A stretch of DNA of 64,000 nucleotides. Source: an uncultured Clostridia bacterium (GTDB lineage Bacteria; Bacillota; Clostridia; Christensenellales; Borkfalkiaceae). Positions 1,443 to 55,731 of this stretch are shown piece after piece. Below the pieces are notes generated by a model that made no database searches, had not been told where the DNA came from, and saw only the letters and a program-made list of their open reading frames with translations. The stretch spans positions 1 to 64,000 of the forward strand of contig CAMWME010000004.1 of NCBI GenBank assembly GCA_947175325.1, read 5' to 3'. Positions within the stretch are counted from its first letter, which is position 1. Every line of letters begins with the position of its first letter. A program made the translations under genes and the position numbers.

Positions 1443-1470
1443 GCGTTATTTCAAGCATATATGGGGGTCT
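1443..1470 (-). repeat. Dispersed ATATGC/CCCCC motif, copy 1
   Basis: The C-rich strand is the minus strand. It reads GACCCCC-ATATATGC-TTGAAATAACGC and is one of the closest copies to the consensus. It lies just downstream of the hinT stop codon. Confidence 0.7.
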
Positions 1471-1471
1471 A

Positions 1472-1810
1472 TCACCAACCGAGCACCTCGCCGCCGAGGA
1501 TATGCACGTGCAAATGGAACACGGTTTGACCCGCGTCGTCGCCTTGGTTTATTATAAGGCGATAGCCGTTTTCAAGTCCGTTTTCTTTTGCAATTTGAGG
1601 TATCTTTTTTAAGATATATTTTAAATCCTCAGCCCTATCTTCGTCCATTTCGGAAAGCAGTTTAAAATGGTTTTTAGGTATTGCCAAAAGGTGCACCTTT
1701 GCCTTGGGTTCAATATCCTTAAACACGAGCATTTTCTCGTCCTCGTACACCTTGGCAGAGGGGATTTCACCCCTTATGATTTTACAGAATAAACAGTCTT
1801 TATCAAGCAT
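1472..1810 (-). CDS. hinT: HIT family nucleotide-binding protein (HinT-like)
   Basis: The 112-residue protein has the normal length of bacterial HinT. It begins with the CLFCKIIRGEIPS signature and ends with the histidine triad HLHVHILGG (about residues 99-107). Family members hydrolyse purine nucleoside phosphoramidates and related adducts in the cytoplasm. It is last in a tight minus-strand run after prsW, with which its start overlaps by 8 bp. Confidence 0.92.
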   Translation of the reverse strand: MLDKDCLFCKIIRGEIPSAKVYEDEKMLVFKDIEPKAKVHLLAIPKNHFKLLSEMDEDRAEDLKYILKKIPQIAKENGLENGYRLIINQGDDAGQTVFHLHVHILGGEVLGW

Positions 1811-3542
1811 CTTTATTTCTCCTTGCTTTAATTTTTAAAGTAATAAACGCCGCGCTGCCGCCTATTAAAGTTGCACCCGCAAGCGTTGACAGCGCGATAA
1901 TCGAGCCAAGCCCTTCAAATTCCGTCTTGCCCGTCCACAAAAAAATCTCCTTGTTTTCACGGTCGTAGCCTATGGATAACGAATTATTCATATAAAAATA
2001 GCTGAATTCAAGTATGGGCTTTTTAGGCTCGGAAGGTTCTTCGGGTTCCGTAGGCTCGGGTTCCGTTATATCGGGCTCCTCAACCTCGGGCGGCGCTTCC
2101 TCCTCGTCCGGAATATCCGGCACGGCAGTATACCTGGGATAATTAAACCAATCAAAATACGCATCTTCAAAAACTTGAATAAGATGTACGTAATGAAGTC
2201 CTTTAACGCCTTTCACCTTCACCGCGATATTTTCAAGAATAGGTTGCCCGTCTTCAAAGGCGTAAACGTAAAAATAATTGCAATCGCCGTCCGTTTCTCT
2301 TTGGGTAGCACCAGCAAGCTGACCTTCAACAAAGTATCGGGTGTAGTCATCGGAGTCTTTATCGTACTCCCTTTCCCAATTTGCGTAAAGGGGCAAACCG
2401 TCTTGAATTCTGTCAATAAGGCTTGGCACGTCGTCAACCTTCTCAGTGATTGCTTTTTCGCCCGTCTTAATGCAGCAGCCCGCAAAGGCGAACACGCTTA
2501 GCACTACGGCGCAAAGCACCGCCGTCAAGTTCGCGGTATGCGAAATTCTTGCACTGATAGTAATCGGCTCCGGCTGATAAATTTCGGGCTTGCCTTCGAA
2601 ATACAGCTCTTTAAAACAGCTTTTCAAGGCGAAGAAAACCGCTATAAAAATTGCGGCAACTACCCCCGCTTCGATAGCCCAACCGACAGTTACACCCCGT
2701 AATATGTTGAGGTTATCGTCAAAAAACGGCACGTCGGCGAAGTAATGCAAAGCCATCATTGCAATTACTATTCCGTAAAAGCGGAAGTTAATAAACGGCT
2801 TTTTAAATTTGGCGAAAGCCCAGCAAATCATAGCCGTCCACGGCGCGTGCGAACACACGCACGAAAGTCCGCGCCCGACCGAAGTAAGCACCAGCCAGCC
2901 CGTTCCGTAAGAACGCGAAAGGGAATAAATATAACCTAAGTCTTCCGTAAAAGAATAGCCCGTTCCAACGGCAAAGCCTATTAAAAAGCAATAAAACGGA
3001 TTCTTCTTGCCGAGAATAAATATTGCCGCGATAGCAACGGCGCCCTTTATAAACTCTTCCCAAAAGCCCACCCACAGCGTGGAAATCCACACGTTCGGCT
3101 CGTTTACGGTGCTATAAATGTACTCGTACCCGAGCGTGATAATTACGGTTGAAATCACACCGCCTATCAAAAGTGCTGCACACAGCTTCAAAAGGCTTAA
3201 ATCGCGCTTAGGGTAAAGCTCGAAGGCTAATATAAAAAGCGGAACGTTGAAAAGAAGTCCGCCCGTCAAAATTGCGGTTTGATAATCCGCGGTATATCTT
3301 GCAAGCCTAAACGCGAATGCAATTATTGCAAATAAAATTACGTTCAGCGCAAACACGCGTATATAAAGCCAAGGCAGCTTTCTTGCAATATTTTCACTGC
3401 AATTATCACCGAGTCCGCGCGTAAAAACTTCGGCATATTCTTCCTTGGTGTGCGGGCGAAAGGTTTCTTTGAAGAAAAATTTCAGCTTTTCTTTGACGCG
3501 CTTATTTTTTGATTTTTCATCACCTTGTAATGAGTTTTGCAT
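1803..3542 (-). CDS. PrsW-family intramembrane protease with extra C-terminal ectodomain
   Basis: The first 310 residues or so are polytopic and carry the PrsW/CPBP-like signatures. These are WEEFIKG near residue 160, GTGYSFTEDLGY near 193, a conserved H in CSHAPWTAM and a late LHYFADVPF. PrsW proteins are glutamic-type intramembrane proteases of site-1 type. After a further hydrophobic segment (about 335-360) comes a 150-residue soluble domain, then a P/E-rich linker (EPEPTEPEEPSEP) and a final membrane helix with a basic tail. The tail is not part of the usual PrsW core (about 200-250 aa). The gene overlaps mtaB by 23 bp. Confidence 0.75.
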   Translation of the reverse strand: MQNSLQGDEKSKNKRVKEKLKFFFKETFRPHTKEEYAEVFTRGLGDNCSENIARKLPWLYIRVFALNVILFAIIAFAFRLARYTADYQTAILTGGLLFNVPLFILAFELYPKRDLSLLKLCAALLIGGVISTVIITLGYEYIYSTVNEPNVWISTLWVGFWEEFIKGAVAIAAIFILGKKNPFYCFLIGFAVGTGYSFTEDLGYIYSLSRSYGTGWLVLTSVGRGLSCVCSHAPWTAMICWAFAKFKKPFINFRFYGIVIAMMALHYFADVPFFDDNLNILRGVTVGWAIEAGVVAAIFIAVFFALKSCFKELYFEGKPEIYQPEPITISARISHTANLTAVLCAVVLSVFAFAGCCIKTGEKAITEKVDDVPSLIDRIQDGLPLYANWEREYDKDSDDYTRYFVEGQLAGATQRETDGDCNYFYVYAFEDGQPILENIAVKVKGVKGLHYVHLIQVFEDAYFDWFNYPRYTAVPDIPDEEEAPPEVEEPDITEPEPTEPEEPSEPKKPILEFSYFYMNNSLSIGYDRENKEIFLWTGKTEFEGLGSIIALSTLAGATLIGGSAAFITLKIKARRNKDA

Positions 3543-4740
3543 ATGCGCCGTCCTTAAAAATTTCAGTTAGCTCCACACCGTATTTTTTGCCGCATTCGAG
3601 ATATAAAGGTACGTAAACCTTAATATAGTTGGGGGTGTATCCAGTCGTGAAGCCTTCCGAGTACTCTTCCGCAATAAAGCTTAAAGGCTTATTTAAAAAC
3701 CTTTTTATATACTTTTCTGCCGCTACTTCACCCGCCGCCAAAAGCCTATGAAGGCGTTCACTTTTTATATCGGGCGGCAAATCTTTTAACTTATAAGCCA
3801 CCGTACCTTCACGCGGTGAAAACGCAAACGCGTGCACCCGCGCAAAGCCGACCTCTTCAATTATCGAAAGACTTTCTAAAAAGTCGACCTCAGTTTCGGT
3901 TGCAAACCCCGCAATAATATCGGTAGTTATCGCCGCATCGGGGAAAAATTGATAGATAAGCTTACACTTTTCTACGTATTCCTCACGCGTGTAGTGTCTG
4001 TTCATTGCCCTTAACACGGCGGAAGAACCGCTTTGCAAAGACAAGTGAAACTGAGGCGCAAAGTCCTTCAGCCCTTTAAGCGCGGTCAAAAATTCTTCGG
4101 TAATTATATTACATTCCAGCGAGCCGAGCCGCACTCGCTTATCGGTATCTTTAAGCGCACGGATTAAGTCGCAAAGAGTTGTATTTTCGTATCCGTAGGA
4201 AGAAATATTTATACCGTTTAAAACCACTTCGGGGCAGTCGGTTTTTGCGATTTCCCCCAATATATCCTCGACTTTCCGCGATTTTTCCCTTCCGCGAAGG
4301 TAGGGAATTATGCAGTATGAGCAGAAGTTATTGCACCCATCTTGTATCTTTATAAAGGCGCGGGTTTTAGTCTGTTTTGGAAAGGAAAGACCCGTATCCT
4401 CACAGCCGTAGCGGCTTGCGATTGCGGAAATAATTTTGCCCTTATTCCTTGCCCCGCTTACGAATGCTACTCCCTTTTCTTCATACGCTTTTTTGTCCTT
4501 TTCGGAAGCGCAGCCGCAAACAAAAATCTGTGCGTTCGGGTTGAACTTCCTCGCGCGGGCAACAAGCTGGCGGCTTTTCTTTTCCGCTTCTCTGGTCACG
4601 GCGCAAGTGTTCAAAACGAAAATATCCGCATAAGACAGCTTGTCCGAAACTTCCCAGCCGAACTTTTCAAGCGTAGCCATGATAGAGGCGCTTTCAACCT
4701 CGTTGACCTTGCACCCCAACGTAAAGACTACCGCCTTCAT
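3520..4740 (-). CDS. mtaB: tRNA (t6A37) methylthiotransferase MtaB
   Basis: This 406-residue radical-SAM enzyme converts t6A37 of tRNA to ms2t6A. The N-terminal MTTase domain opens with TLGCKVNEVES, the diagnostic MtaB form. The radical-SAM cluster motif CNNFCSYC (CxxxCxxC) lies near residue 137. A TRAM-like region closes the protein. Its start overlaps the rsmE stop by 4 bp, placing it in the prmA-rsmE-mtaB-prsW-hinT run, a familiar Firmicutes arrangement. Confidence 0.93.
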   Translation of the reverse strand: MKAVVFTLGCKVNEVESASIMATLEKFGWEVSDKLSYADIFVLNTCAVTREAEKKSRQLVARARKFNPNAQIFVCGCASEKDKKAYEEKGVAFVSGARNKGKIISAIASRYGCEDTGLSFPKQTKTRAFIKIQDGCNNFCSYCIIPYLRGREKSRKVEDILGEIAKTDCPEVVLNGINISSYGYENTTLCDLIRALKDTDKRVRLGSLECNIITEEFLTALKGLKDFAPQFHLSLQSGSSAVLRAMNRHYTREEYVEKCKLIYQFFPDAAITTDIIAGFATETEVDFLESLSIIEEVGFARVHAFAFSPREGTVAYKLKDLPPDIKSERLHRLLAAGEVAAEKYIKRFLNKPLSFIAEEYSEGFTTGYTPNYIKVYVPLYLECGKKYGVELTEIFKDGAYAKLITR

Positions 4741-5465
4741 TTCAGCTCACCCAAAGCATACGCAATTAGCGCACAGACGGTAATTGCCGCAGTTTCAGCG
4801 CGCAAAATTCTTTTACCGAGCGAAATTCCAGTAAAGCCGAGGGCTTGCGCGTTCTCGTATTCCTTATGCGAAAATCCACCCTCACTGCCCACTACGACTG
4901 CGGTAGAGCCCGTAAGGCAAGATAAGTCACCGCCGTTAGAGCTTTCTAAAAACTCGCAAGCAAACAGCTTGTTAGCGTAGTCGCCCGCAGATTTTAACGC
5001 GCTATCCAAATCGCCGAAATATTCTATCTCCGGCGCGCAAGAGCGTTGGCACTGTTTAGCCGCCTCACGGGCAACTTTTCTGAGCCGCTCCAATTTATTG
5101 TCGTTCATATAAGCAGAGCAGTATTCGGAAGAAAACACGCCTATTTTGGATACGCCGAGCTCGGTTGCCTTTTGAACGATAAGCTCGGTTTTGTCCCCCT
5201 TCAAAGCTCCGCAAAGTAAATAAATGGGGGTCTTGGGTTCTCTTTCACCCTCAATTGACCCCGTAATATGTGCCAACAAACGGTGTTTTTCGATTTTTGC
5301 GACTATCGCGGAATACTCCTTTCCGCTGCCGTCCAAAAGCACGATTTCCGTCCCCTCTTCAACCCTTAACACGGTTTTTGCGTGAACGAATTCTTCGCCT
5401 TCCAAATAAACTTCCGTTTCGCCCACGTTAAGTTTTTCGATAAAAAATCTTTTATGCGCGCTCAT
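4737..5465 (-). CDS. rsmE: 16S rRNA m3U1498 methyltransferase RsmE
   Basis: The 242-residue SPOUT-class methyltransferase has an N-terminal PUA-like part (VYLEGEEFVHAKTVLRVEEG). The C-terminal knot includes KATELGVSKI, VVVGSEGGFS and LGKRILRAETA, the last two being the SAM-binding knot motifs. It methylates U1498 of 16S rRNA. It overlaps prmA and mtaB by 4 bp on each side. One copy of the dispersed 30-bp motif lies within it, in a reading frame different from the tilS and ligA copies. Confidence 0.94.
   Translation of the reverse strand: MSAHKRFFIEKLNVGETEVYLEGEEFVHAKTVLRVEEGTEIVLLDGSGKEYSAIVAKIEKHRLLAHITGSIEGEREPKTPIYLLCGALKGDKTELIVQKATELGVSKIGVFSSEYCSAYMNDNKLERLRKVAREAAKQCQRSCAPEIEYFGDLDSALKSAGDYANKLFACEFLESSNGGDLSCLTGSTAVVVGSEGGFSHKEYENAQALGFTGISLGKRILRAETAAITVCALIAYALGELK
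5251..5284 (+). repeat. Dispersed motif, copy 2 (inside rsmE)
   Basis: The plus strand reads TCAATTGACCCC, then GTAATATGTGCC, then AACAAACGG. It retains both the TCAATTGA left end and the right flank, but lies inside rsmE where it encodes LLAHITGSIE. Confidence 0.6.
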
Positions 5466-6403
5466 AATTTAAACGATAGGGCAAGCCACTCGCCCTCTTT
5501 TAAAGTCTTTTCCAATTTAAGCCCTTGCGCCGTAAAAGCGGTGATAACCATTTCAAGTCGGCTTTCGATTATGCCGCTTAAAATAAGCGTGCCTCCCGCC
5601 TTTAAATTCTTGGGGATTGAGGGCGCAAGTCCGCACAGAATTTCCGCCGTGATGTTGGCAAGCATAATGTCGCCCTTGATTTCGGCGTTATCCAAAAGGT
5701 TGGAGTGCGCCACCGTAACGCTGTCCGCCACCCCGTTTATTTCCGAATTGTGCTTTGCGCTCTCGACTGCCACGTAGTCAATGTCGGTAAGGTATGCGTA
5801 CTTTGCGCCGAGTTTAATTGCGGAAATGCCGAGAATGCCGCTTCCGCAGCCCACGTCGATACAGACGCTTGACGGCGTTAAATATTCTTGCAACAGTTTA
5901 AGACACATAGCCGTGGTTTCGTGTTCGCCCGTGCCGAATGCCATATTGCTGTCCAGCTTCACCACTTCTTCAAATGGCTTTTTGTCGTAAGCAATCCACT
6001 CGGGGCACACGACGATTTTTTCGCCTATGTGCAAGGGGCGGAAATGGGTTTTCCAAATTTCAATCCAATCGTCACCCTCAACCTCTCGCAAGGTCGTTTC
6101 AAGCGAGCCGAGCTTAGTAAAGCCCGCGCAGTTTGAAGAAAGTTCTTCCAAGTCCTCGCGTATTTTGGGTAAGGTGGTTGCGGTTTCGTCGTTCGGCACG
6201 AAGGCTTTAACGAGCACGTCTTGCCGCTCGCTTAAAAGGTTTTCGTCTATGTAGTCCCAGTACAAAACTTTGTTCTGTTGAAGGGCGATGACGTCCTTAA
6301 CGTCGGATATCGCCACGCCGTAGTTAGTGTACCGCCACAAAATATCGGCGATAAGCTCACTACCTTCGGTAGTGGTATGTATAGTAAGTTCGGTGAATTT
6401 CAT
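5462..6403 (-). CDS. prmA: Ribosomal protein L11 methyltransferase PrmA
   Basis: The product of 313 residues has the PrmA layout: an N-terminal substrate-recognition domain (1-100) and a Rossmann methyltransferase domain. The motifs FGTGEHETT, VCIDVGCGSGILGISAIKLGA and MLANITAEIL are visible. It trimethylates L11. ATG 6403 follows an AAGGAC site. It heads the overlap-coupled group prmA-rsmE-mtaB-prsW-hinT. Confidence 0.95.
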   Translation of the reverse strand: MKFTELTIHTTTEGSELIADILWRYTNYGVAISDVKDVIALQQNKVLYWDYIDENLLSERQDVLVKAFVPNDETATTLPKIREDLEELSSNCAGFTKLGSLETTLREVEGDDWIEIWKTHFRPLHIGEKIVVCPEWIAYDKKPFEEVVKLDSNMAFGTGEHETTAMCLKLLQEYLTPSSVCIDVGCGSGILGISAIKLGAKYAYLTDIDYVAVESAKHNSEINGVADSVTVAHSNLLDNAEIKGDIMLANITAEILCGLAPSIPKNLKAGGTLILSGIIESRLEMVITAFTAQGLKLEKTLKEGEWLALSFKL

Positions 6404-8068: not shown

Positions 8069-8098
8069 ATAATAAAGTTTGCACCTTTTTTTAAATTT

Positions 8099-8131: not shown

Positions 8132-8133
8132 AT

Positions 8134-12196: not shown

Positions 12197-12883
12197 TTAT
12201 TCGTTATTCTGATATGCGTGCGGGGTTGAATAGAGGTCGAATTCTTCGTCAATATCGAAGTCCGCCTCGTCGTCGAACGCCGCAAGCTTGGAAATCGAAA
12301 CCTCGTAAGCGGTCATAGTGATAAAGGTTTCGTCGGGCTGTTTCTTTTGGTACTCTCTGGACTGAATTCTACCGGAAAGCGCAACTCTGTCCCCCACGGA
12401 TAAATTACGCACGAAGCGGGCGTTTCTGCCCCAAGCTATCGCGGGGATATAATCCGACTTGTTGTAGCTGCGGTTCACCGCAATTAAAAGGTCGGCAATC
12501 TCTCTGTTGAATGGCGTGGTGCGGTAAACGGGCGGTTTACAGATATAGCCCGAAAGAACTATCGAGTTGGGGTTCTTCCCCGGTTGCGTATCCAAAAGCT
12601 CTCTCACGAAAACGGTCAGCATCAAGCGCGATTTGCCGTCCTCTAACTTATTGTAAGAGCGGAATTGCCCAAGCGCGCAAATGTAACTGCCAACGCGCAT
12701 ATCTTCCGTCATTATCCTCTCGGATACGGTTACGGGCAGAATATCCGCTTGACCCGAAAGCCGCATAACCTTCACGAAAAATTCGTAAAAGCCTTCACCG
12801 TAGACCTCGTGTGAAAAGGTTGCCTCGGACACGATTTCGCCGTACACGTAAACCTTGTTGTTTTTCTCCGTGTTGTAATTCAT
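12197..12883 (-). CDS. Single-stranded DNA-binding-like protein with two OB folds
   Basis: The 228-residue product contains two consecutive OB-fold stretches. The first (about 10-95) is divergent. The second (about 98-200: NSIVLSGYICKPPVYRTTP ... GDRVALSGRIQSREY) resembles bacterial SSB. The C-terminus is acidic (DIDEEFDLYS) but lacks the canonical DDDIPF tip that recruits partner proteins. ATG 12883 is chosen because GGAGG lies 7 nt upstream; the longer frame starts at TTG. Probably an accessory ssDNA-binding protein rather than the essential SSB. Confidence 0.72.
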   Translation of the reverse strand: MNYNTEKNNKVYVYGEIVSEATFSHEVYGEGFYEFFVKVMRLSGQADILPVTVSERIMTEDMRVGSYICALGQFRSYNKLEDGKSRLMLTVFVRELLDTQPGKNPNSIVLSGYICKPPVYRTTPFNREIADLLIAVNRSYNKSDYIPAIAWGRNARFVRNLSVGDRVALSGRIQSREYQKKQPDETFITMTAYEVSISKLAAFDDEADFDIDEEFDLYSTPHAYQNNE

Positions 12884-12922
12884 ATATGCCTCCAAATTAA
12901 GTATTTCCTTGTAAAAAATTCG

Positions 12923-12951
12923 ATTGCCCCCAATATATGCCGCAAATAACG
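12923..12951 (+). repeat. Dispersed motif, copy 3 (intergenic)
   Basis: The plus strand reads ATTGCCCCCA, then ATATATGCCGC, then AAATAACG. It lies between the deacetylase stop and the start of the SSB-like gene. Confidence 0.7.
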
Positions 12952-12957
12952 GGGTTT

Positions 12958-13722
12958 TTAAATTGCCGCCTTCTGCATCCCCGTGCCGTCTATTACGTAG
13001 TTTTCGCGAAGAATAAGCTCGCCAACCGGCACGAATGAGTAGCCTCTGTTTTTCAAAGTTTCAAGTATTATGGGCACGGCTTCCGCAGTGTGAAGCCCGT
13101 TGTTGTGCATAAGTATTATCGAACCGTTTTTAACGCCGTTAATAACCCGCATCGCTATATCGGACGCCGATAAATCTTTCCAATCCAAGCTGTCAACGTC
13201 CCATTGAATGCTGTAATAGCCCAGCTCGGAAGCCGTCTTTATAAGCTCGTCGTCGTAGTCACCGTAGGGCGGGCGGAACAGCTCCACCTTCTTCCCCGTT
13301 ATATTTTCGATAGCCTCGGAGGACGTGGTAAGCTCTTGCTTTATGTCCTCGGCGTTCAGCTTGCTCATATAGGAATGCGTTGAAGAATGCGTGCCTATCT
13401 CACAGCCGTGCTCGTCGATTTTTTTCACGAACTCGGTGTATTTCTCGGTCCAAAATTCAACCATGAAGAAGGTTGCCCGCACGTCGCAGTTTTTAAGCGC
13501 CTTTAAAATATCGTCGGTATATTCAGTACCCCACGCGCAGTCAAAGGTAATCGAGCAAACCTTTTCCTCCCTCTCTACGCAGTAAATGGGTATCAGCCTC
13601 GGCGTGTTGCCGTAAAAGACCGCGTACGCGCCCGTAAAGTACACGGAAACGCTAAGTACCGCCGCCATCGCCACAGCGGCAAACGCAAGAATAACAGTTT
13701 TGAATTTAACCGTTTGTATCAA
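12958..13722 (-). CDS. Polysaccharide deacetylase (PdaA/PdaB-like, NodB domain)
   Basis: The product has an N-terminal membrane anchor (about 10-35) and a NodB homology domain. The catalytic/metal motifs are TFDCAWG (the usual TFDD is replaced by TFDC), HSSTHSYM and RPPYGDYD. Enzymes of this type deacetylate peptidoglycan or chitin-like sugars outside the membrane. Start TTG 13722 is preferred because CGGAGAG lies just upstream; an upstream TTG at 13743 has no site. The D-to-C change at the second aspartate is also typical of the PdaB subgroup, so activity is uncertain. Confidence 0.82.
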   Translation of the reverse strand: MIQTVKFKTVILAFAAVAMAAVLSVSVYFTGAYAVFYGNTPRLIPIYCVEREEKVCSITFDCAWGTEYTDDILKALKNCDVRATFFMVEFWTEKYTEFVKKIDEHGCEIGTHSSTHSYMSKLNAEDIKQELTTSSEAIENITGKKVELFRPPYGDYDDELIKTASELGYYSIQWDVDSLDWKDLSASDIAMRVINGVKNGSIILMHNNGLHTAEAVPIILETLKNRGYSFVPVGELILRENYVIDGTGMQKAAI

Positions 13723-14885: not shown

Positions 14886-16202
14886 TTATTTTAATTTGCC
14901 TTTTTTCTTTCTTATTTCCTTTACGGTTTGTTCAAAGCCGTAATCGGACGGGGTGTAATAAATTCTGTCCTTTAACTTATCGGGAAGATACTGCTGTTCA
15001 ACGTAGCCGCCCGCATAATCGTGCGGGTATTTGTACTTGGAGCTTTGCGCCTTCGTATCTCTATCACCGAAGGTGTTGTCTTTAAGGTAAGGCGGCACGC
15101 CCTCGTCGTCGCGCACCTCGCGCGCGTCCCGCTTTGCCGCGTTCATAGCAACTTCAACGGTATTGCTTTTGGGCGCTTCGCAGACGTAAACGATAGCTTC
15201 GCACAACGGCTCTAACCCTTCGGGGTAGCCCGTCTTTTCGAATATGTACATAGCCGACGCCGCAATATTCAGCGCGTTGGGGTCAGCCATACCCACGTCC
15301 TCCGCCGCATGAATCGACAGCCGCCTTGCAATAATCATAGGGTCGCAACCGCCCTCAACAAGCCGCATCGCATAGTAAAGTGCGGCGTTCGAATCACTGC
15401 CGCGCAAGGATTTGCAGAAAGCCGAAAGATAGTCGTAGTACGCGTCCTCGCTATAGGACATCGCCTTTTTCTGAATGGACTGTTCCGCATCGGACAAAGT
15501 AACCTTTATACTTCCGTCGGCTTGGGGCGGGGTGGTCAGCACGGCAAGCTCCAAAGCGTTGTACGCAGTACGCAAATCGCCGCCCGCAACACGCGCTATA
15601 TGGTCAAGTGCATCGTCGTCAACGGTTGCCGAATATTCCCCCAAACCTTTGCGTTTATCCGTCAAAGATTTTGCGATTGCCCCCCGAATATCCTCGAACG
15701 AAAGCCTTTTGAACTCAAAAACTCTGCACCTTGAAACTATTGCAGGAGTCATCGACGCATAGGGGTTTTCCGTGGTGGAACCTATGAAAATTATGGTGCC
15801 TTGCTCTATTGCGGGAAGAAGGCTGTCCGACTGAGTTTTGTTAAAACGGTGGCACTCGTCAAGCATCAAATAAGTGCGCTTGCCGTACATTTTTAAATTG
15901 TTCCTTGCGTCCTCTACCGCCTTCTTCACGTCGGATACGCCCGACTGCACCGCGTTCAGTTTTATAAATTCTCCGTGCGTAGTCTGGGCAATTATATTGG
16001 CAAGCGTGGTCTTGCCCGTTCCGGGAGGTCCCCAGAAAATGCAGCTTCCAAGCCTATCCAAGGATATTGCGCGCCTTAAAAGAGAGCCTTCCGCAACGAT
16101 ATGCTTCTGTCCTATAAATTCGTTTAAGTTGTTTGCGCGCATGCGCTCGGCAAGGGGCTTTGCCCCGCTTTCATTGCCGTTTAAATCGAAAAGGTCGTTC
16201 AT
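14886..16202 (-). CDS. rarA: AAA+ ATPase RarA/MgsA (replication-associated recombination protein)
   Basis: The 438-residue clamp-loader-like ATPase has Walker A GPPGTGKTTLA near residue 59, Walker B LMLDECHRF near 112 and an arginine finger region (STTENPYASMTPAIVSRCRVFEF). A C-terminal tetramerisation domain follows, with VEGGCDPMIIARRL and ASEDVGMADP-like AAEDVGMADPNAL. It acts at stalled forks. Its start overlaps the patatin gene stop by 4 bp. One dispersed motif copy lies inside. Confidence 0.94.
   Translation of the reverse strand: MNDLFDLNGNESGAKPLAERMRANNLNEFIGQKHIVAEGSLLRRAISLDRLGSCIFWGPPGTGKTTLANIIAQTTHGEFIKLNAVQSGVSDVKKAVEDARNNLKMYGKRTYLMLDECHRFNKTQSDSLLPAIEQGTIIFIGSTTENPYASMTPAIVSRCRVFEFKRLSFEDIRGAIAKSLTDKRKGLGEYSATVDDDALDHIARVAGGDLRTAYNALELAVLTTPPQADGSIKVTLSDAEQSIQKKAMSYSEDAYYDYLSAFCKSLRGSDSNAALYYAMRLVEGGCDPMIIARRLSIHAAEDVGMADPNALNIAASAMYIFEKTGYPEGLEPLCEAIVYVCEAPKSNTVEVAMNAAKRDAREVRDDEGVPPYLKDNTFGDRDTKAQSSKYKYPHDYAGGYVEQQYLPDKLKDRIYYTPSDYGFEQTVKEIRKKKGKLK
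15676..15705 (+). repeat. Dispersed motif, copy 4 (inside rarA)
   Basis: The plus strand reads ATTGCCCCCCGAATAT, identical to the left 16 bp of the ligA copy. The right half (CCTCGAACGAAAGC) is diverged. The region codes for EDIRGAI. Confidence 0.45.
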
Positions 16203-18014: not shown

Positions 18015-18022
18015 AACTGCGG

Positions 18023-18052
18023 TTAACCCCCACATATGCTTGAAATAACGCG
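18023..18052 (+). repeat. Dispersed motif, copy 5 (between convergent genes)
   Basis: The plus strand reads TTAACCCCCAC, then ATATGC, then TTGAAATAACGCG. It fills the 39-bp gap between the convergent ylbJ and pheA stop codons. Confidence 0.72.
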
Positions 18053-21587: not shown

Positions 21588-22562
21588 TTACCGTAAATAC
21601 ACCCTTTCGGAACGCTTGGTAACCGAAGTTAGCACCTCGTAAGAGATAGTCCCCGCAAGCCTTGCATATGCGTCCGCGTCGGCTAAAACGCACTTCAAAT
21701 CCTCGCCGCCGATTGATATAAAAGCGTCCATGCACAACGTCTTTTCACCAAGCGGAACGCCCCTGAAAAAACCGTCCGCATAACCCAAGCGGTAAACGCT
21801 TAATTTGCCGTAATTTTTATCTGCAATATTGTAGCCTATGCCACCGCCGATGAATTGCGTCTGTTGGGTTCTTCTTGCATAAACTTTAAGCGCGGGCGTA
21901 AAGCCCTTTGCGTAAAATCCGCTAGGCGCATAGCCGTACAAAAGTATGCCCGCACGCGCCCCTTCCTTAAGGTATTCACCGCCCCGCAAAACGCCTCCGC
22001 TTGCCGATAGGTGCCCGAATATGTTGGAGTTTCGCGCTTTTACAAGCTTTTCAGCACGGTCGAAAAGCGCAAGCTGTTTTCTGCTTTCAGCCGAATTTTC
22101 GGGGGCGTATAAATGCGAATACACGCTAACTATATTATCGGCTTTCACCGCGTCTAAAACCTTAGGAAGTTCTGAAAAATTGCAGCCCGAACGGTTCATT
22201 CCCGTATTCACTTTTATATGGCACAAATTATCGCCGCAAAGCGCCGCCGTATGAACCGAATTGACGGTCAGTTCAAGAGCATAAAAAGCAGCCCTTAATG
22301 CGTCGCCTTTATCCAGCGGCGGAGTGAATACCAAAACGGGTTTGGATACCCCCGCAACCCTAAGCGCAATACCTTCGTCAATTATTGCAACGCAAAAGCC
22401 GTCAACTACGTCCTCGATGGCGCGAGCAACTTCCTCCGCACCGTGCCCGTAAGCGTCCGCCTTTACGACCGCATAAAAAAATCTGTTACCCAAAATTTTA
22501 CGCAAATTCAAAGCGTTTTGTCTAATTGCCCTAAGGTCTATTACTGAAACGGTTTTCTGCAT
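21588..22562 (-). CDS. alr: Alanine racemase (short form)
   Basis: The PLP lysine motif FYAVVKADAYGHGAEEVA places Lys near residue 34. Later motifs include VNTGMNRSG, GARAGILLYGYAP, GGGIGYN (catalytic Tyr region), GYADGF and CMDAF. Alr interconverts L- and D-alanine for peptidoglycan. At 324 residues it is shorter than the usual 360-390, with small loops missing but no key motif absent. ATG 22562 has no clear ribosome-binding site; a TACAAT box lies 6 nt upstream. Confidence 0.9.
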   Translation of the reverse strand: MQKTVSVIDLRAIRQNALNLRKILGNRFFYAVVKADAYGHGAEEVARAIEDVVDGFCVAIIDEGIALRVAGVSKPVLVFTPPLDKGDALRAAFYALELTVNSVHTAALCGDNLCHIKVNTGMNRSGCNFSELPKVLDAVKADNIVSVYSHLYAPENSAESRKQLALFDRAEKLVKARNSNIFGHLSASGGVLRGGEYLKEGARAGILLYGYAPSGFYAKGFTPALKVYARRTQQTQFIGGGIGYNIADKNYGKLSVYRLGYADGFFRGVPLGEKTLCMDAFISIGGEDLKCVLADADAYARLAGTISYEVLTSVTKRSERVYLR

Positions 22563-23330: not shown

Positions 23331-24335
23331 TTATTCTTTATTTTCCGTTTGAGAGGTTTCCGCCTCTACTTCGGGTTGGCCTTGAGGCGCGCTATCTGAA
23401 GGGGCTTTGCCCGCCGCTTTTTTCTTCTTTAAAGAGAGATACCCCCCAACATATGCTGCAACTAACGCAACTACGACCGCAACTATTATACTTAATAACA
23501 ATATTTTTACAAGCGACATTCCGCCTTGTTCAACGATAATATTAGGTTGAACGAACGCCACGGACGTAGCCTTTTCGTAAACCGCCTTACTCGTGTTTTT
23601 AAATGTTTCGGTAAGCTTTTTAACGGTTTCGGCTTCGTATTGCTTTACGTCCGTTTCAACGCCGAGATAAGCCGTAACTTCTTGAGCATAAGAAATCAAA
23701 GTTCTACCATCAACGACAAAAGTATTACCGTACGTCGCAATAAGCGAGCCGTATTCTTGCGTCAAAAATTCCAACTGCTGCTTTAACATATTATTGTCAT
23801 AAGAATCGAAGCCTTCGAGTAAGTCATAATTTATTTCCATAGATTTGAGATACTCGGCGGGATATTCGGCAACAGAAGTTAAAAATTCTTTTGCTTCATT
23901 AGCATTGCCGAAATACTTCATTTTTGCACTTACTTTATAAACCGTTTCCTTGTAAACGTTGGTGCCGTCCGCAGATAAAGGAGTAACCGTTACGTTACGC
24001 GTGATACTTATATCACCGTTTTTAACCATTTTGTCCACGTTAACGTTTGAAAAATTGCCCTTTTCCTTTATCTCGTTAAGCGTTTTCACGGAAGTCATTT
24101 CAGAATAATAAAACAGTTTTCCGTCGGGATAGCTGTAAAAAGCACCGTTATCGCTCCCAGGCAAATTCAAGCTGAACTCAGTTTCATAAGTCTTTATGCT
24201 GGGATTGTACACGTAATTAATCAAAACCGCGCACGCAAGCGCCACCAAAACCGCAACTATAAGTGCAAGCCACTTTTTCAGCCAAATGGTCTTGCAAATG
24301 TCTTTCAGCGTCATACCTTTGTTCTCGTCTTCCAT
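23331..24335 (-). CDS. Wzz/GumC-like chain-length determinant family protein
   Basis: The 334-residue protein starts cytoplasmic (GMTLKDICKTIWLKKWLAL), crosses the membrane at about 20-42 and has a 230-residue extracytoplasmic helical domain. A second helix follows at about 280-305 and a charged, low-complexity tail ends it. This is the topology of Wzz/Wzc-N proteins, which set polysaccharide length. No glycosyltransferases or tyrosine kinase adjoin it. A copy of the dispersed motif encodes VAAYVGGY at the start of the second helix. A GAGGAGA site precedes ATG. Confidence 0.72.
   Translation of the reverse strand: MEDENKGMTLKDICKTIWLKKWLALIVAVLVALACAVLINYVYNPSIKTYETEFSLNLPGSDNGAFYSYPDGKLFYYSEMTSVKTLNEIKEKGNFSNVNVDKMVKNGDISITRNVTVTPLSADGTNVYKETVYKVSAKMKYFGNANEAKEFLTSVAEYPAEYLKSMEINYDLLEGFDSYDNNMLKQQLEFLTQEYGSLIATYGNTFVVDGRTLISYAQEVTAYLGVETDVKQYEAETVKKLTETFKNTSKAVYEKATSVAFVQPNIIVEQGGMSLVKILLLSIIVAVVVALVAAYVGGYLSLKKKKAAGKAPSDSAPQGQPEVEAETSQTENKE
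23441..23468 (+). repeat. Dispersed motif, copy 6 (inside the wzz-like gene)
   Basis: The plus strand reads ACCCCCCAAC, then ATATGC, then TGCAACTAACGC. The core is well preserved and the right flank is slightly diverged. Confidence 0.55.
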
Positions 24336-24956: not shown

Positions 24957-25298
24957 TTAAAAATTTCCGCCGTTCCAACCCCAGTCCGATATGCCTTGAT
25001 AGGTAACGTAAACGGAAGAAGGCTGAATATTCAGTTTGTCTTTTAAAACGTTGCAAATTGCCGCCGTCATACGCTCACAATCGCTTGAAGAAGGGTTTCC
25101 GAACAGTTTGACCCCCACATATGCCGCGTTTTCCAGCTTTTTGCCCGCAAAATACAAATCGTAATTATCGGCAATTCCGACCATCAAATAGCTTTCGGGC
25201 TTGTGCATAATCGCAATATTTTTGCCGAGTTCAGTCTTTAAAATTTCCTTCTTTTCATCGGTAAGTTTCGCTGAAATTTTGCAATCGATAAAAGGCAT
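24957..25298 (-). CDS. MIF/tautomerase superfamily protein
   Basis: The 113-residue product keeps the catalytic Pro next to Met (MPFIDCKIS). It has the length and layout of macrophage migration inhibitory factor-like tautomerases, including a KPESYLMVGI stretch and a C-terminal VYVTYQGISDWGWNGGNF close to MIF. Family members tautomerise phenylpyruvate-like enols; the physiological substrate is unknown. It lies between tilS and hpt with an AGGAG site. A dispersed motif copy encodes AAYVGVK. Confidence 0.85.
   Translation of the reverse strand: MPFIDCKISAKLTDEKKEILKTELGKNIAIMHKPESYLMVGIADNYDLYFAGKKLENAAYVGVKLFGNPSSSDCERMTAAICNVLKDKLNIQPSSVYVTYQGISDWGWNGGNF
25107..25130 (+). repeat. Dispersed motif, copy 7 (inside the MIF-like gene)
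   Basis: The plus strand reads TTTGACCCCCAC, then ATATGCCGCGTT. The left and core parts are intact; the right AAATAACGC flank is absent. Confidence 0.5.
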
Positions 25299-26621: not shown

Positions 26622-26628
26622 AAAAGTT

Positions 26629-29540: not shown

Positions 29541-29554
29541 GAACAAGATTAAAG

Positions 29555-32297: not shown

Positions 32298-32303
32298 AAT
32301 CAC

Positions 32304-47513: not shown

Positions 47514-49454
47514 CTACTTTATCATTTCTTTAAAAGTGGCTTCGTCGATAATCTTTATGCCGAGCTTTTTAGCCTTGTCAAGCTTACTGCCCGCGGACTC
47601 GCCCGCAATAACCAAAGTCGTTTTTGCGGTAACCGAGCTTTGACATTCGCCGCCGTTTTCTTCTATTATTTTCTGCGCTTCCGAACGCTTAAAATCTTGC
47701 AAGGTTCCGGTCAATACAACGAATTGCCCCCCGAATATGCTTGAAATAACGCTCTTTTGCGCCGTTTGCGGGTTCACGCCCGCCGAAAGCAAACTATCAA
47801 TTTCTGCAAGGTTCTTTTCGTCCTTAAACCAGTTGACGATAGCCTCCGCTGTAATATCACCAACGTTCTCAAGCTCCAAAAGCTCGTCTTTTGTGGCACT
47901 TTTAAGATTATCAATATTTTTAAAGGCTTTAACCAAATCTTTTGCGGCAACCTTACCGACTCCGTCGATACCCAAAGCAAAGATAAATCTTTCTAAGGAA
48001 ACGGTTTTGCTTTTTTCGATTGCGCCCAATAAATTATTTATTTTCTTATCTTTAAAGCCCTCTAAGCTACTGAAATCTTCGTAAGTATAATTGTAAACTT
48101 GCGAGCATTCACGCAAGCCAAGCTTATCGTACATAAGCTCTGCCGTCTTTTCGGAGAGGCCCTCAATATCCATAGCGTCTTTTGAGGCAAAATGTTCAAC
48201 CTTGCCCACGACACGCGGCGGGCAATACTTATTCGGGCAGAAAAGGTTTGCCCCCACTTCTTCCACCGAACTTCCGCAGAACGGGCAATTTTTCGGCTTT
48301 TCTACGTTTAAACTGCCTTCAACGTGCTCCACTGCACCTAAAATCTCGGGGATAACTTCATTCGAGCGGCGTATTAAAACTTTGCTTCCGACCTTTACGT
48401 CTTTGCGAGTAAGGTCGCCGAAGTTATTTAAAGTTGCCTTTCTTACGGTTGCGCCCGCAAGCTCAACGGGTTCGACAATCGCAAGCGGGGTAAGTTTTCC
48501 CGTTCTGCCGACTTGCCAAACTACTTCTTTTACGGTAGTAATACTTTCCTCTGCCTCGAACTTATAAGCCATAGCCCAGCGCGGAAATTTGTCCGTATAC
48601 CCCAATATATCCCTTACTTTCGTGGTATTCAGCTTAATAACCGCCCCGTCCGTAAGTACGTCTAAATTCTTTCTTTCAATCTCTATTTCTTCGATAGCGG
48701 CTTTCACCTCGTCCTCGTTTTTGCACAGCCGCAAAAACTCGAACACCTTGAAGCCTTGCTCCCTTAAAAAGTCGAAGTGTGCCGTTTGCGAAGGCAGCTC
48801 GCCCTCGCTCATGTAGTTCACGTTATAGAATAAAATTTCTGGCTTTCTTTCGGCGGTAATTTTCGGGTCAAGGTTTCTTATCGCCCCCGCCACCGCGTTC
48901 CGCGCGTTTTTAAGCTGCTCCTTTGCCGTTTTGTTGTATTCTTCCAAAACGCTTAAACGGATAACCGCCTCGCCTTGCACCTCCAAAGTTCCCTTATAAG
49001 GTATTGCAAGCGGGAATGATTTTATAGTTAAACATTGCGCCGTAACGTCTTCGCCTTCGACGCCGTTACCGCGGGTAGTTGCCCGCACGAACTTGCCGCC
49101 GTCGTAAGTTAAACACATCGTAAGCCCGTCGAACTTGTACTCAACCGTGTACTCGGGGTTTTCTTCAACCTTTTTAATGCGCGTAAAAAAGGTGTCAAGC
49201 TCGTCGTAAGTTACGGACTTATCAAGGCTGTAAAGCCGCGAAATGTGCGCGTGCTTTTCAAAGCCCTTTATAGGTTCGCCGCCGACACGCTTCGTCGGAC
49301 TGTCAAACTCCACCTTGCCCGTGCTTTCTTCCAAGGCGCGAAGCTCGTCGTAAAGTTTGTCGTACTCTCTATCCGAAACGGACGGATTATCTAAAACGTA
49401 GTACTCGTACGCCCATTTATTAAGTTGGTCGATTAAGGCGCGCATTTTATCCAT
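47514..49454 (-). CDS. ligA: NAD+-dependent DNA ligase LigA
   Basis: The 646-residue enzyme has the adenylation motif VEYKFDGLTM (Lys near 107), an OB fold, the Cys4 zinc site (CPFCGSS ... CPNKYCPPR), helix-hairpin-helix repeats and a C-terminal BRCT domain (FGGQFVVLTGTLQDFKR). It seals Okazaki fragments. Length is near the typical 660-680. It follows pcrA by 42 bp, the usual Firmicutes pair. Dispersed motif copies lie in the pcrA-ligA gap and at the start of the BRCT domain. Confidence 0.96.
   Translation of the reverse strand: MDKMRALIDQLNKWAYEYYVLDNPSVSDREYDKLYDELRALEESTGKVEFDSPTKRVGGEPIKGFEKHAHISRLYSLDKSVTYDELDTFFTRIKKVEENPEYTVEYKFDGLTMCLTYDGGKFVRATTRGNGVEGEDVTAQCLTIKSFPLAIPYKGTLEVQGEAVIRLSVLEEYNKTAKEQLKNARNAVAGAIRNLDPKITAERKPEILFYNVNYMSEGELPSQTAHFDFLREQGFKVFEFLRLCKNEDEVKAAIEEIEIERKNLDVLTDGAVIKLNTTKVRDILGYTDKFPRWAMAYKFEAEESITTVKEVVWQVGRTGKLTPLAIVEPVELAGATVRKATLNNFGDLTRKDVKVGSKVLIRRSNEVIPEILGAVEHVEGSLNVEKPKNCPFCGSSVEEVGANLFCPNKYCPPRVVGKVEHFASKDAMDIEGLSEKTAELMYDKLGLRECSQVYNYTYEDFSSLEGFKDKKINNLLGAIEKSKTVSLERFIFALGIDGVGKVAAKDLVKAFKNIDNLKSATKDELLELENVGDITAEAIVNWFKDEKNLAEIDSLLSAGVNPQTAQKSVISSIFGGQFVVLTGTLQDFKRSEAQKIIEENGGECQSSVTAKTTLVIAGESAGSKLDKAKKLGIKIIDEATFKEMIK
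47722..47752 (+). repeat. Dispersed motif, copy 9 (inside ligA)
   Basis: The plus strand reads AATTGCCCCCCGA, then ATATGC, then TTGAAATAACGC. All three parts are intact; the reverse strand encodes VISSIFGGQF. Confidence 0.68.
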
Positions 49455-49460: not shown

Positions 49461-49491
49461 TCAATTGACCCCCATATATGCTTGATTTAAC
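49461..49491 (+). repeat. Dispersed motif, copy 10 (pcrA-ligA gap)
   Basis: The plus strand reads TCAATTGACCCCC, then ATATATGC, then TTGATTTAAC. It fills most of the 42-bp gap. Its GGGGG (minus strand) lies 16 nt before the ligA ATG and is the only purine-rich site there. Confidence 0.7.
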
Positions 49492-49496
49492 TAGGT

Positions 49497-52536: not shown

Positions 52537-52622
52537 TTGTTTTTAAGGAATTTATTACCATTATTTTTGTGTGGTTTTTAAAGCGCTTTTTACGCTCGAT
52601 TTTTGGGCGGTAAATATGCATA

Positions 52623-52649
52623 GACCCGCACATATGTGCCAAATAACGC
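52623..52649 (+). repeat. Dispersed motif, copy 11 (between FtsX-like gene and rpsU)
   Basis: The plus strand reads GACCCGCAC, then ATATGTGCC, then AAATAACGC. The C-run is broken by G but core and right flank are intact. Confidence 0.6.
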
Positions 52650-52663
52650 ACTTTTTCGACAAA

Positions 52664-54571
52664 TTACTCAATGGCTTTTAAGCTTTCGTTCATATCGATT
52701 TTTACGATTTTGCGCTTTAACATTAAAGTAACTATGAAGGCGAAGAAAATCACGATTGCGGGAGCGATTAGCCACCAGAACCAGTTTACGCCGCCTATAG
52801 AGCCGACAGCTATTACACTAAAAACGAGCCACATTATCAGCGTTGACAAGGGGTAGCCGAAGACTATGCCCACGGCGGTATCAATATAAACCTCACGGTA
52901 GATATAACCCGCCACTTCCTTTTCTTGATAGCCGAGAACCTTTAGCGTTGCAAGCTCGCGGTTTCTTTCGCTGACGTTGATATTAGTTAAAGTGTAGATA
53001 ACTGCGGCAGTTAATAGCCCCGCAAAGATTATTACGACGACTGCAATTGCCATAACCGACGGAGAATTTATTCCGCCGAACAGACAAACATCTAAAAGGG
53101 CAAGCCCCGCCATTACGAGTGCAGTTGACACTGCAACCGCCACCACCGTCATAATAAACCGCCCTAAATACCTTAAAACGTTACGCATCGTAGATTTGTA
53201 TTTAAACGAGAGGGCGTTCCAAATGAACGGAATTTTTTCCAAAAACACCTTTTTACCCGCCTTTGGCGGTTTGGGGCGGAGAAGATTTGCGGGCGTTTCG
53301 CTTGTCAGCTTTAAGCCCGCTATTAGCGTAGCTAATAAAGTTATGGCAACGATTACGAAAAATACTATTACATAGAAGGGCAACGCAACAGTTGAAGATA
53401 CGGGCGGCATTGCAAAGCTGTAATTGAATACGTAATAAATAAGATGTGCAAGCCCTAACCCCACGAAGTAGGAAGCCACGCCGCCTATACCCGCGGCAAT
53501 CATAGCAAACAATACGTATTTGAATACGATTTTAAATGAAGAATAACCGAGGGTTCTGAGGCACGCGATTTGCGCCCTTTCTTCTTCCATTAGCCTAGTC
53601 ATAGTGGACTGCGCGACGAGTGCGGTTACGAATACGAACGCGACCATCAAAACGAGCCCTATGCCCATAACCTTGTCTGCGTAAGAATTTAGCGAAACGA
53701 AGCTGTAATTGTCTTTAAGCGTCAGAATCTTTACGTCGGAGCTCTCGGCGTCTAATTCAAGTGCGGCGCTGACGACTGACTTTTGCTCTGCCAAATAGCT
53801 ATCGTATTTTTTATCGAATGCGTTGAATTTGTCTTTATCGCTGAATGAAAGATATACCGTATTCGTGGAAATAAGAGGCGCACCGGTAAACGGATTTTTC
53901 GGGATTAGGCTTGAGGACAAATACAAGATATTATCCAAAGTGTCAAGTGCGTTTGCCGCGTCGATGGTGTCGGGGACTTCCATATCCTCGTCGTTAAAAT
54001 CGCTGGGCTCGCCGTCGTTTGCAAAGGTCAACGGACTTAGTACTATACCCGCTATTTTGACGTCGATTTTGGGCAGTTGAGCCGCTAAACTCAAGGATAT
54101 ATGGGCACCAATCGAAAAACCGAGTATCTTGTTGTCGACTTTTTCACACAGTACTTCACCCTCTTTTGAAGGCATTTTTCCGTCGATAAGGTCGGGCTTA
54201 TTTACCGTCCACTCGCCCTCGGAATAGCCGTCCAAAAAGCACAAGCGCACCGTTTGCTTAACGCCGTCGATTTCCGTTTCGACGTCGAGCTGAACGCTCG
54301 TGCTTACGTTGTTAGCGCCGTAAGTTTCCTTCAAGATGTCGATACCCGATAGTTGACTTTCGCTAAACCCCGTAAGTGCTGTGCTTCGCAGCACCAAGTC
54401 GCTGACGTTTTGGGCTTTGTAGTAATCCGTCATGGAGTACTTTATTTTGTCCGTAGATGTACCGATGCCCGAAATAAAACCCACCGCCACTATGACGATA
54501 AAGATTATTGAGATGAAACGCGTTATATGCTTTTTGAACATTCGCGTTAGGGTTTTTAAGTAGGTTTTCAT
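52664..54571 (-). CDS. FtsX-like ABC transporter permease
   Basis: The 635-residue protein begins with an inner-membrane helix (about 14-36), has a 240-residue extracytoplasmic MacB-like domain, three helices (about 300-420), then a second FtsX domain with helices to about 615. It is a MacB/YhaP/FtsX-class permease of the type that exports peptides or senses antibiotics rather than translocating small solutes. The ATPase gene lies 1 bp upstream. A weak copy of the dispersed motif lies inside. Confidence 0.85.
   Translation of the reverse strand: MKTYLKTLTRMFKKHITRFISIIFIVIVAVGFISGIGTSTDKIKYSMTDYYKAQNVSDLVLRSTALTGFSESQLSGIDILKETYGANNVSTSVQLDVETEIDGVKQTVRLCFLDGYSEGEWTVNKPDLIDGKMPSKEGEVLCEKVDNKILGFSIGAHISLSLAAQLPKIDVKIAGIVLSPLTFANDGEPSDFNDEDMEVPDTIDAANALDTLDNILYLSSSLIPKNPFTGAPLISTNTVYLSFSDKDKFNAFDKKYDSYLAEQKSVVSAALELDAESSDVKILTLKDNYSFVSLNSYADKVMGIGLVLMVAFVFVTALVAQSTMTRLMEEERAQIACLRTLGYSSFKIVFKYVLFAMIAAGIGGVASYFVGLGLAHLIYYVFNYSFAMPPVSSTVALPFYVIVFFVIVAITLLATLIAGLKLTSETPANLLRPKPPKAGKKVFLEKIPFIWNALSFKYKSTMRNVLRYLGRFIMTVVAVAVSTALVMAGLALLDVCLFGGINSPSVMAIAVVVIIFAGLLTAAVIYTLTNINVSERNRELATLKVLGYQEKEVAGYIYREVYIDTAVGIVFGYPLSTLIMWLVFSVIAVGSIGGVNWFWWLIAPAIVIFFAFIVTLMLKRKIVKIDMNESLKAIE
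54091..54114 (-). repeat. Dispersed motif, weak copy (inside the FtsX-like gene)
   Basis: The plus strand reads TCAAGGATATATGGG, close to the reverse-complement core TCAAGCATATATGGG. The rest is diverged. Confidence 0.3.
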
Positions 54572-55391: not shown

Positions 55392-55473
55392 GCGGATATG
55401 GCGGAACGGCAGACGCGCTGGACTTAGAATCCAGTGAGAAATCGTGTAGGTTCAAATCCTATTATCCGCACCA
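55392..55473 (+). tRNA. tRNA-Leu (TAG)
   Basis: GCGGATA pairs with TATCCGC. The anticodon arm CTGGA-CTTAGAA-TCCAG gives TAG. There is a longer variable region, and CCA is encoded. Length is 82 nt. Confidence 0.92.
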
Positions 55474-55640
55474 TAAAGCTTTGGTGAAAGTAATTTTGCC
55501 GAGGCTTTTATTTTGCAAAAAACGTGTAAAACGCGCGCAAAAGAGAAAAAATGGAAATATTCTAAAAAATTGTCTAAAAACGCACATATTGGCGGGGCAA
55601 TGCGCTTTTTGCGCTGATTTAATAACTAAAACACCCCGAA

Positions 55641-55667
55641 AGTGCGGCATATATGGGGGGCAATTGA
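55641..55667 (-). repeat. Dispersed motif, copy 12
   Basis: The C-rich strand is the minus strand: TTCAATTGCCCCCC, then ATATATGCCGCACT. Confidence 0.65.
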
Positions 55668-55707
55668 AATTTTGACGGTTTTTAAAAAATGCGAATAAAA
55701 AATAAAA

Positions 55708-55731
55708 CCGCTATATGTGCGGGGCAATTGA
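55708..55731 (-). repeat. Dispersed motif, copy 13
   Basis: The minus strand reads TCAATTGCCCCGCAC, then ATATAGCGG. It is 41 bp from copy 12 and in the same orientation. Confidence 0.55.

Follow-up and report, generated by a model that had tools for sequence, protein, structure and literature searches.

Dispersed chromosomal sites that avoid the terminus are known to us for very few proteins, Noc and SlmA among them. Noc, in Bacillus subtilis and Staphylococcus aureus, and SlmA, in Escherichia coli, recognize many scattered, sequence-specific sites that are under-represented at the terminus and tell the division machinery where unsegregated chromosome lies (PMC4726725, partial text). With regard to the architecture of sites, the DNA gyrase motif of E. 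coli has a symmetric layout in which a 36-bp centre (-16 to 19) is bordered by flanks of 10.75-bp GC periodicity, and the enzyme follows an origin-to-terminus gradient and sits downstream of transcription (PMC6379681, partial text). With regard to the origin of dispersed words, uptake signal sequences (USS) come about through point mutation rather than insertion and carry AT tracts beside their core (PMC7811141, partial text). Here we describe a dispersed DNA word of 32-36 bp in an uncultured Clostridia bacterium of the gut, a member of the family Borkfalkiaceae (assembly GCA_947175325.1, 1,538,294 bases in 25 contigs). It was noticed in what is termed the window, i.e., the whole analysed stretch of 64,000 nucleotides at positions 1 to 64,000 of contig CAMWME010000004.1 (C4:1-64000). 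The word constitutes a real, conserved system of dispersed sites, and we give an even chance to the reading that each copy is the nucleation site of a putative genus-specific DNA-wrapping or DNA-bending protein or complex that organizes the chromosome and spares the terminus.

The word has a fixed spacing, reads close to C[GA]AT[TA]G[AC]CCCCCANATATGCNNNAA[AT]TAACGC and occurs on both strands and in all codon phases. When the A of ATAT is numbered as column 0, the ATAT columns are almost invariant (0.95-1.00), C is found at columns -7 to -4 in 77-89% and T at column -11 in 93% of the sites, and columns 9-16 read A-A-[AT]-T-A-A-C-G. Covariation is strong between neighbouring columns (-2/-1, 10/13, 5/6) and little of it crosses the two halves. 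The core reaches about 45 bp in the 37 copies that lie wholly or partly between genes, where it is extended by an AT stretch (-21 to -16) and a run of T (20-23). The original prediction, made from the letters of the window, had described a step of 1-3 nt and an ATATGC/ATATGTGC core; the apparent step resolves into alternative letters at columns -3 to -1, and the core is really ATATG followed by alternative letters.

Chance and codon bias are ruled out as the source of the word. An iterated 36-column matrix found 147 sites of >=11 bits in 462,643 bases (the window plus 20 further stretches of the same genome) as opposed to one in the reversed sequence; since this matrix was trained on the same sites that it counts, an independent test was made with a matrix from 12 window copies. 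Over the 398,643 bases lying outside the window it detected 89 sites of >=18 bits, whereas 20 shuffles preserving protein and codon use averaged 7.75 and never exceeded 12, so that the comparison with codon-preserving shuffles proposed in the original prediction came out in favour of the word. Genome scans were performed with a model termed R1, derived from 12 copies (11 of those originally listed as good plus the copy at 55,589), and its counts in distant species are lower bounds. In the window's own genome, R1 yielded at least 147 matches at E<=10 (best 150 of 754 candidates scored) and at least 122 at E<=0.01 (best 150 of 742 candidates scored). Related records are mostly metagenome-assembled genomes of Clostridia, 'Candidatus Coproplasma' among them. 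Four fragments of the word matched no paper in the literature searches made, and in titles and abstract beginnings no description of a comparable system from this genus was met.

Sites inside genes are under constraint. In ligA, the core is identical in the window's genome, G004 and G009, the other species shown lack the word, and the protein sequence of the region is related across species. As its length agrees to within one residue in the species without the word, the word in ligA was made by substitutions and then kept; an insertion of the word is not seen in this single gene examined. Among in-gene sites in general, the core differs by 3.2% from G009, compared with 10.5-11.8% for the flanks, and by 8.3% from G004, compared with 20-23%, i.e., it diverges at 30-40% of the flank rate. 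When genic and intergenic sites are pooled, 41 of 44 aligned sites still reach 12 bits in G009 and 25 of 30 in G004, where three of the five apparent losses still show the site, broken by an alignment gap. The intergenic core evolves more slowly than its flanks in G004 (16% vs. 20-27%), and changes in intergenic cores are swaps between equivalent letters. The site in the spacer between the polysaccharide deacetylase and SSB genes is near-identical in relative L005 (89% identity over 901 bp aligned).

The same spacer provides the sole hint of insertion. Read by eye, the word occurs in deacetylase-SSB spacers of 62 (the window), 66, 67, 74 and 165 nt and is missing from spacers of 14, 32 and 37 nt (L008, 62 nt, is ambiguous), as would be expected if the copies were remnants of a very small mobile repeat, an origin that had also been considered in the original prediction. 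On the other hand, two long spacers of 216 and 282 nt lack the word as well, the ligA site arose by substitution with a length change of at most one residue, and sites persist at orthologous places, which makes a mobile repeat highly improbable. The dispersal of the copies and the origin of the ligA copy by substitution also bear out the earlier exclusion of CRISPR and insertion sequence ends.

The word is restricted to one genus and is nearly missing from two clades of that genus. Between 1 and 128 R1 matches at E<=0.01 are present per genome in 21 genomes of the genus, and these counts define rich (>=40), poor (<15) and middle genomes (G001, G011, G014, G018), with two poor clades, G010/G019/G020 and G006/G013/G017. 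When stretches were scanned directly at >=12 bits, there was no site in 60 kb of G019, one in 80 kb of G006 and three in 80 kb each of G013 and G017 (controls 0, 0, 1 and 0), compared with 23 in 91 kb of G004 (control 2), the G004 stretches having been picked for their hits. These scans support the view that low counts in poor genomes reflect real loss. Beside the gene for ParB, there are 0 sites in 40 kb of G014, 3 in 60 kb of G017 and 5 in 31.8 kb of G013, and 20 in 60 kb of G002, 13 in 40 kb of G016, 9 in 40 kb of G008, 14 in 20 kb of G004 and 4 in 20 kb of G011; the rich genome G012 has just 3 in 40 kb. At orthologous places the word is kept in 14 of 23 cases in rich genomes vs. 1 of 15 in poor or middle ones, and flank phase at these places in the poor set is changed or weak, as far as small numbers allow. 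In a LigA tree of 20 genomes, the six poor genomes form two supported groups and the rich/poor label needs two changes, a value as low being reached in 2 of 500 shuffles for rich and 0 of 500 for poor; the firmly supported branches are also compatible with a single change. Across the family, a scan of 81 genomes at E<=0.001, with stricter filters and a model trained on the window's genome, detected matches in four of seven genomes of this genus and, among 74 genomes from 17 other genera, a single match in one genome.

Placement relative to genes was evaluated for 123 sites of >=18 bits with mechanically called open reading frames (ORFs): 86 lie inside ORFs, on both strands and in all codon phases, 29 lie between ORFs and 8 cross their ends. 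Density is 0.98 per kb in spacers vs. 0.20 inside ORFs, and the mean score is 36.1 outside vs. 28.6 inside. Convergent spacers are richest (2.01 sites per kb), followed by tandem (0.89) and divergent ones (0.58), and 15 of 19 tandem-spacer sites lie nearer the 3' end. There is mild clustering in the window's genome, with 32 adjacent gaps of <=400 bp as opposed to 13.1 expected, an excess to which empty zones contribute, and a few sites form tandem pairs or arrays spaced 63-68 or 78-79 bp. A strand bias relative to origin and terminus, one of the checks suggested originally, is not seen: the C-rich strand is leading at 56 of 123 sites, when the leading strand is assigned from the local GC skew, a skew that in some stretches is close to zero. 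This arrangement bears on the idea that an ordinary transcription regulator with an exceptionally large regulon uses the copies as its operators. Being a specific, conserved DNA word of protein-binding size, the word would suit such a regulator; the low density in divergent spacers, the position of tandem-spacer sites near 3' ends and the 86 of 123 sites inside ORFs in all phases argue against it, and we regard it as improbable.

Outside the core, AT content around 121 sites oscillates in register with the word every 11-12 bp for about 125 bp to each side. Phasing power amounts to 0.287 on the left and 0.140 on the right, while 200 random sets gave at most 0.018 and 0.016; at 84-143 bp it is still 0.041 and 0.064 vs. 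0.020 and 0.019 in the control, and it exceeds the control to about 143 bp and not farther. Fits by segment give a period of 11.3-11.8 bp. The best mirror centre is found at 1.0 (r 0.87) and the next at 1.5 (0.78), the middle of ATAT, such that a dyad at ATAT is likely. The near-flank phase is similar in G009, G004, G021 and a deeper set of G002, G016 and G008, where the far flanks are weaker. Phasing of this kind may point to wrapping of, or one-sided binding along, about 250 bp of DNA. The flanks resemble class A flexible patterns, which make up an 11-bp periodic genome bias and place helically phased signals in coding as well as non-coding sequence (PMC1242344, partial text). These patterns are, however, short and discontinuous and occupy up to half of the genome according to that text. 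Since bacterial genomes are thus reported to carry an 11-bp bias of their own, background windows matched to the near-flank phase of each site were drawn. Beyond 57 bp this background loses coherence (0.008-0.018), while the sites keep 0.046-0.099 (standard error about 0.022); the matched background does not explain the phasing of the word.

The nearest structural picture is that of strong gyrase sites (SGS; Mu SGS, pSC101, BIME-2), which likewise combine symmetric phased AT/GC flanks with a 36-bp centre and a location downstream of genes. The copies would then be strong sites of DNA gyrase or topoisomerase IV, with the core as gate segment, the flanks wrapped on the C-terminal domains and the enzyme placed downstream of genes; centre, core length and phasing are similar in both motifs, and the word favours convergent spacers and the 3' ends of genes. 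Motif finders fail on the gyrase motif because of its degeneracy, as stated in the partial source text, whereas the core of the word is highly specific, and the phasing of the word reaches about 125 bp, compared with about 65 bp for gyrase, with a longer period. A cleavage preference for -4G/+8C is reported for the enzymes of E. coli, Bacillus anthracis and Mycobacterium tuberculosis (PMC12324340, partial text). With ATAT taken as the 4-bp overhang, the word instead shows C at -4 in 84% and a mixture at +8 (column 7), and the gyrase preference for -2A/+6T is not reflected either (A at -2 in 60%, C at +6, column 5, in 63%). The AT profile of the word misses the annotated gyrase cut of Mu at 17,879-17,880 (z -1.6 to 0.2; -0.1 to 1.0 at 17,876), the best position within 12 bp of the cut ranking 207 to 2,016 of 36,437. 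At least two matches to type IIA A subunits are present in 19 of the 21 genomes of the genus, both among those that carry the word and among those that lack it, and no link between presence or absence of topoisomerases and the word was seen in these 21 genomes. Eight columns of GyrA (10 rich, 4 poor) and 28 of ParC (6 rich, 4 poor) separate rich from poor genomes, numbers that have no baseline and from which nothing is drawn. Cleavage preference, the Mu test and the species distribution thus speak against gyrase, and we consider this explanation unlikely.

Three genomes, namely G021, that of the window and G004, have few sites around the terminus, and other empty zones exist. The most extended map stems from contig C1 of G021 (823,664 bp, 710,000 bases read, matrix refitted on half of the contig), where GC skew turns from positive to negative near 600 kb, a switch in this direction being the expected mark of the terminus. 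At >=15 bits this contig carries 58 sites (control 2), with densities of 2.6-3.0 per 10 kb at 100-200 and 250-300 kb and 1.3 at 200-250 kb; density drops to 0.4 by 350-400 kb and stays at 0-0.5 to the end, on both sides of the skew switch. With boundaries set after the map had been seen, 47 sites in 275,000 bases of 102-405 kb contrast with 5 past 405 kb, where 335,000 bases were covered (P 7.8e-12). In the window's genome, the skew of C1 switches in the same direction between 85 and 100 kb, the segment at 25-195 kb corresponds to 506-750 kb of C1 in G021, and the 147 matches listed include none from C1:46,328 to 243,421, a stretch that spans the switch. Ten proteins were annotated in the empty C1:100-120 kb, including DNA polymerase III alpha, IF-3, ThrRS, YebC and one phage-type integrase. 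G004 has one site in the 60 kb orthologous to C1:40-85 kb, for which the window's genome has two in the parts read. Near dnaA, six sites are present in 18.6 kb of contig C19 of the window's genome, and four lie within 3.3 kb in G021.

From an evolutionary point of view, the nearest picture is that of uptake sequences (USS and DNA uptake sequences, DUS, of Pasteurellaceae and Neisseriaceae), which are dispersed, lineage-specific words arising by point mutation. The original prediction had thought of an uptake-like word: a competence machinery would prefer DNA that bears it, and biased transformation would spread it by molecular drive. Several observations fit this idea. The word arises by point mutation in ligA and at orthologous sites, as uptake sequences do, the partly accessory block at 27-47 kb of the window is free of sites, and ComEC is encoded in 10 of 11 rich genomes including that of the window (the remaining one is 84% complete) and in none of the three poor genomes G010, G019 and G020, which lack a ComEC match though 93-97% complete. 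The other poor clade (G006, G013, G017), however, retains a ComEC open frame, so that ComEC hints at such an origin in one clade and runs counter to it in the other, and drive predicts neither the site-empty housekeeping genes around the terminus nor phasing to 125 bp. USS and DUS have cores of 9-10 bp and about 1,400-2,200 copies, in contrast to the longer core, phased flanks, fewer copies found and sparse terminus of the word. No uptake sequence is known to us from Firmicutes, a point at which no search was aimed, and we judge this origin decidedly unlikely.

The nearest functional picture is that of Noc and SlmA sites serving nucleoid occlusion, with which the word shares its scattering over the chromosome and its scarcity at the terminus. 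Noc and SlmA sites are, however, palindromes (14 bp for Noc) of which about 70 and 24-52 exist, as opposed to an asymmetric core of 32-36 bp with phased flanks at more than 120 sites. The Noc system itself was rejected, as no second ParB-type protein is found in the window's genome and the site is not a 14-bp palindrome. ParB_N matches exactly once in 17 of the 21 genomes of the genus, that of the window included, four times in G014 and not at all in G003 and G015; G006 has two matches, the second below cut-off.

Returning to a wrapping, chromosome-organizing protein, we envisage that it would read the core and grip the phased flanks, about 250 bp in all, along a single face of the DNA. With these complexes abundant on the arms and sparse at the terminus, the chromosome would bear a position-dependent mark, by which the cell might compact the arms, tether them or coordinate division with the completion of replication. 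Tentatively, and with chances that we place somewhat short of even, this would amount to a new chromosome-organizing system in which a protein of one Clostridia genus reads an asymmetric core of about 36 bp and wraps about 250 bp of pre-phased DNA at well over 100 selected arm sites that stop short of the terminus, the phased flanks being written into coding sequence. Of the meanings originally considered, a chromosome-organizing word or the binding site of a lineage-specific nucleoid protein is the one supported by genus restriction, in-gene constraint, terminus scarcity and helically phased flanks; as a whole, the original interpretation is partly supported.

Several observations weigh against this assignment. 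The binding protein was not found, and no gene tracks the word among those compared beside ParB, most of which, in the stretches covered, are present in both rich and poor genomes. The intergenic core is not slower than its surroundings in G009 (9.7% vs. 7.7-16.4%). A joint fit of both near flanks gives a period of 12.3 bp, unlike the fits by segment. The mirror centre is not unique: because positions 7.0 and -4.5, half a period off, yield r of 0.77 and 0.76, the dyad is likely and not proved. Phasing past 57 bp amounts to 2-4 standard errors per bin and is weak in the combined G002, G016 and G008 set, and the spacings of 16 pairs do not settle on multiples of 11.25 bp. On the chromosome map, C2:1-159 kb of the window's genome, which adjoins the gene for ParB and a skew switch of origin type, likewise contains none of the 147 matches listed. 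Ten proteins annotated there include Big_2, DUF2207, BspA-type repeats and restriction-modification, but also RNase E/G, and because of this mixture accessory content explains the gap only in part. Furthermore, C1:1-50 kb of G021 is empty, yet G000 has sites in part of the corresponding region. If the assignment is nevertheless true, the system would not be that of Noc and would have a different site architecture, and selection would be maintaining a nucleosome-like wrapping signal within the coding DNA of a bacterium. Because the word is common across the genus and all but absent from two clades, the protein should be findable by gene-content subtraction, which renders the question testable.

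Within the window, 18 sites reach 18 bits, 13 on the plus and 5 on the minus strand in agreement with the two orientations noted before, and 23 reach 12 bits (Table 1). All 12 positions first listed as good carry the word, 11 at 26.8-42.0 bits with the refined matrix and the one at 55,708 as a partial copy of 15.3 bits. The copy at 15,676, described as half-diverged, proved genuine (29.3 bits). The weak copy at 54,091 is genuine by the refined matrix (28.4 bits), although R1 gives it just 3.1 bits, while that at 26,590 found no support (5.1 bits, E 1.7 with R1; not among the refined-matrix sites). The list missed sites at 4,246 (28.6 bits), 22,003 (24.9), 26,077 minus (24.1), 55,605 minus (18.8) and 2,686 (18.2).

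Table 1. Copies of the word in the window, with one example of a phased footprint
Feature	Position	Strand	Score (bits)	Context
Site	1442..1474	-	40.0	between convergent genes; orthologue in L006
Weak site	2688..2720	+	18.2	within 1803-3542 (PrsW-like protease)
Site	4248..4280	+	28.6	within 3520-4740 (radical SAM); absent from original prediction
Site	5252..5284	+	30.5	within 4737-5465 (RNA methyltransferase); counterparts in L006, L014, L019
Site	12921..12953	+	42.0	spacer, polysaccharide deacetylase gene / SSB gene
Site	15674..15706	+	29.3	within 14886-16202 (MgsA-type AAA+ ATPase)
Site	18020..18052	+	39.2	between convergent genes
Site	22005..22037	+	24.9	within 21588-22562 (alanine racemase N-terminal family)
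Site	23437..23469	+	35.0	within 23331-24335
Site	25105..25137	+	26.8	within 24957-25298 (MIF family)
Site	25629..25661	+	39.1	within 25308-26657 (TilS)
Site	26043..26075	-	24.1	within 25308-26657 (TilS)
Site	47721..47753	+	37.8	within 47514-49454 (LigA); core identical in G000, G004, G009
Site	49462..49494	+	34.1	spacer, ligA / UvrD/PcrA helicase gene
Site	52618..52650	+	34.4	intergenic
Site	54082..54114	-	28.4	within 52664-54571 (FtsX-like permease)
Site	55571..55603	-	18.8	member 1 of tandem array of three, 63-64 bp apart
Site	55634..55666	-	36.0	member 2 of the 55571-55732 tandem array
Partial site	55697..55732	-	15.3	member 3 of the 55571-55732 tandem array
Example of putative phased footprint, about 250 bp	12810..13062			extent is an average over all sites, not established for this one individually

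The gap noted earlier between 27 and 47 kb is real, as no site of >=11 bits occurs from 26,077 to 47,719. This partly accessory block carries genes for a leucine-rich-repeat protein and a DNA methylase as well as those for ParC and ParE (topoisomerase IV) at 42060-46612, and it contains four copies of a terminator-like hairpin at 27055-32334 with AAAAAGACACAG ... CTGTGTCTTTTT arms, one of them diverged. Near ParB, the densest site region features two large proteins of 626 and 671 amino acids without Pfam match at 1e-10 (L118:3-1883 and L118:2615-4630). An RNA element was considered and rejected, Rfam at gathering score giving only four tRNAs in the window and no match in L118, L128 and L129. 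A repeated element of about 100 nt with hairpins is located directly 5' of four sites (L118 at about 8,095-8,195 and 13,740-13,840, L128 at about 800-905, L129 at about 6,240-6,340); four copies were recognized by eye, three of which were recovered again, with a z of -3.0 for one copy, and similar elements occur in L038 and L045, there without the word.

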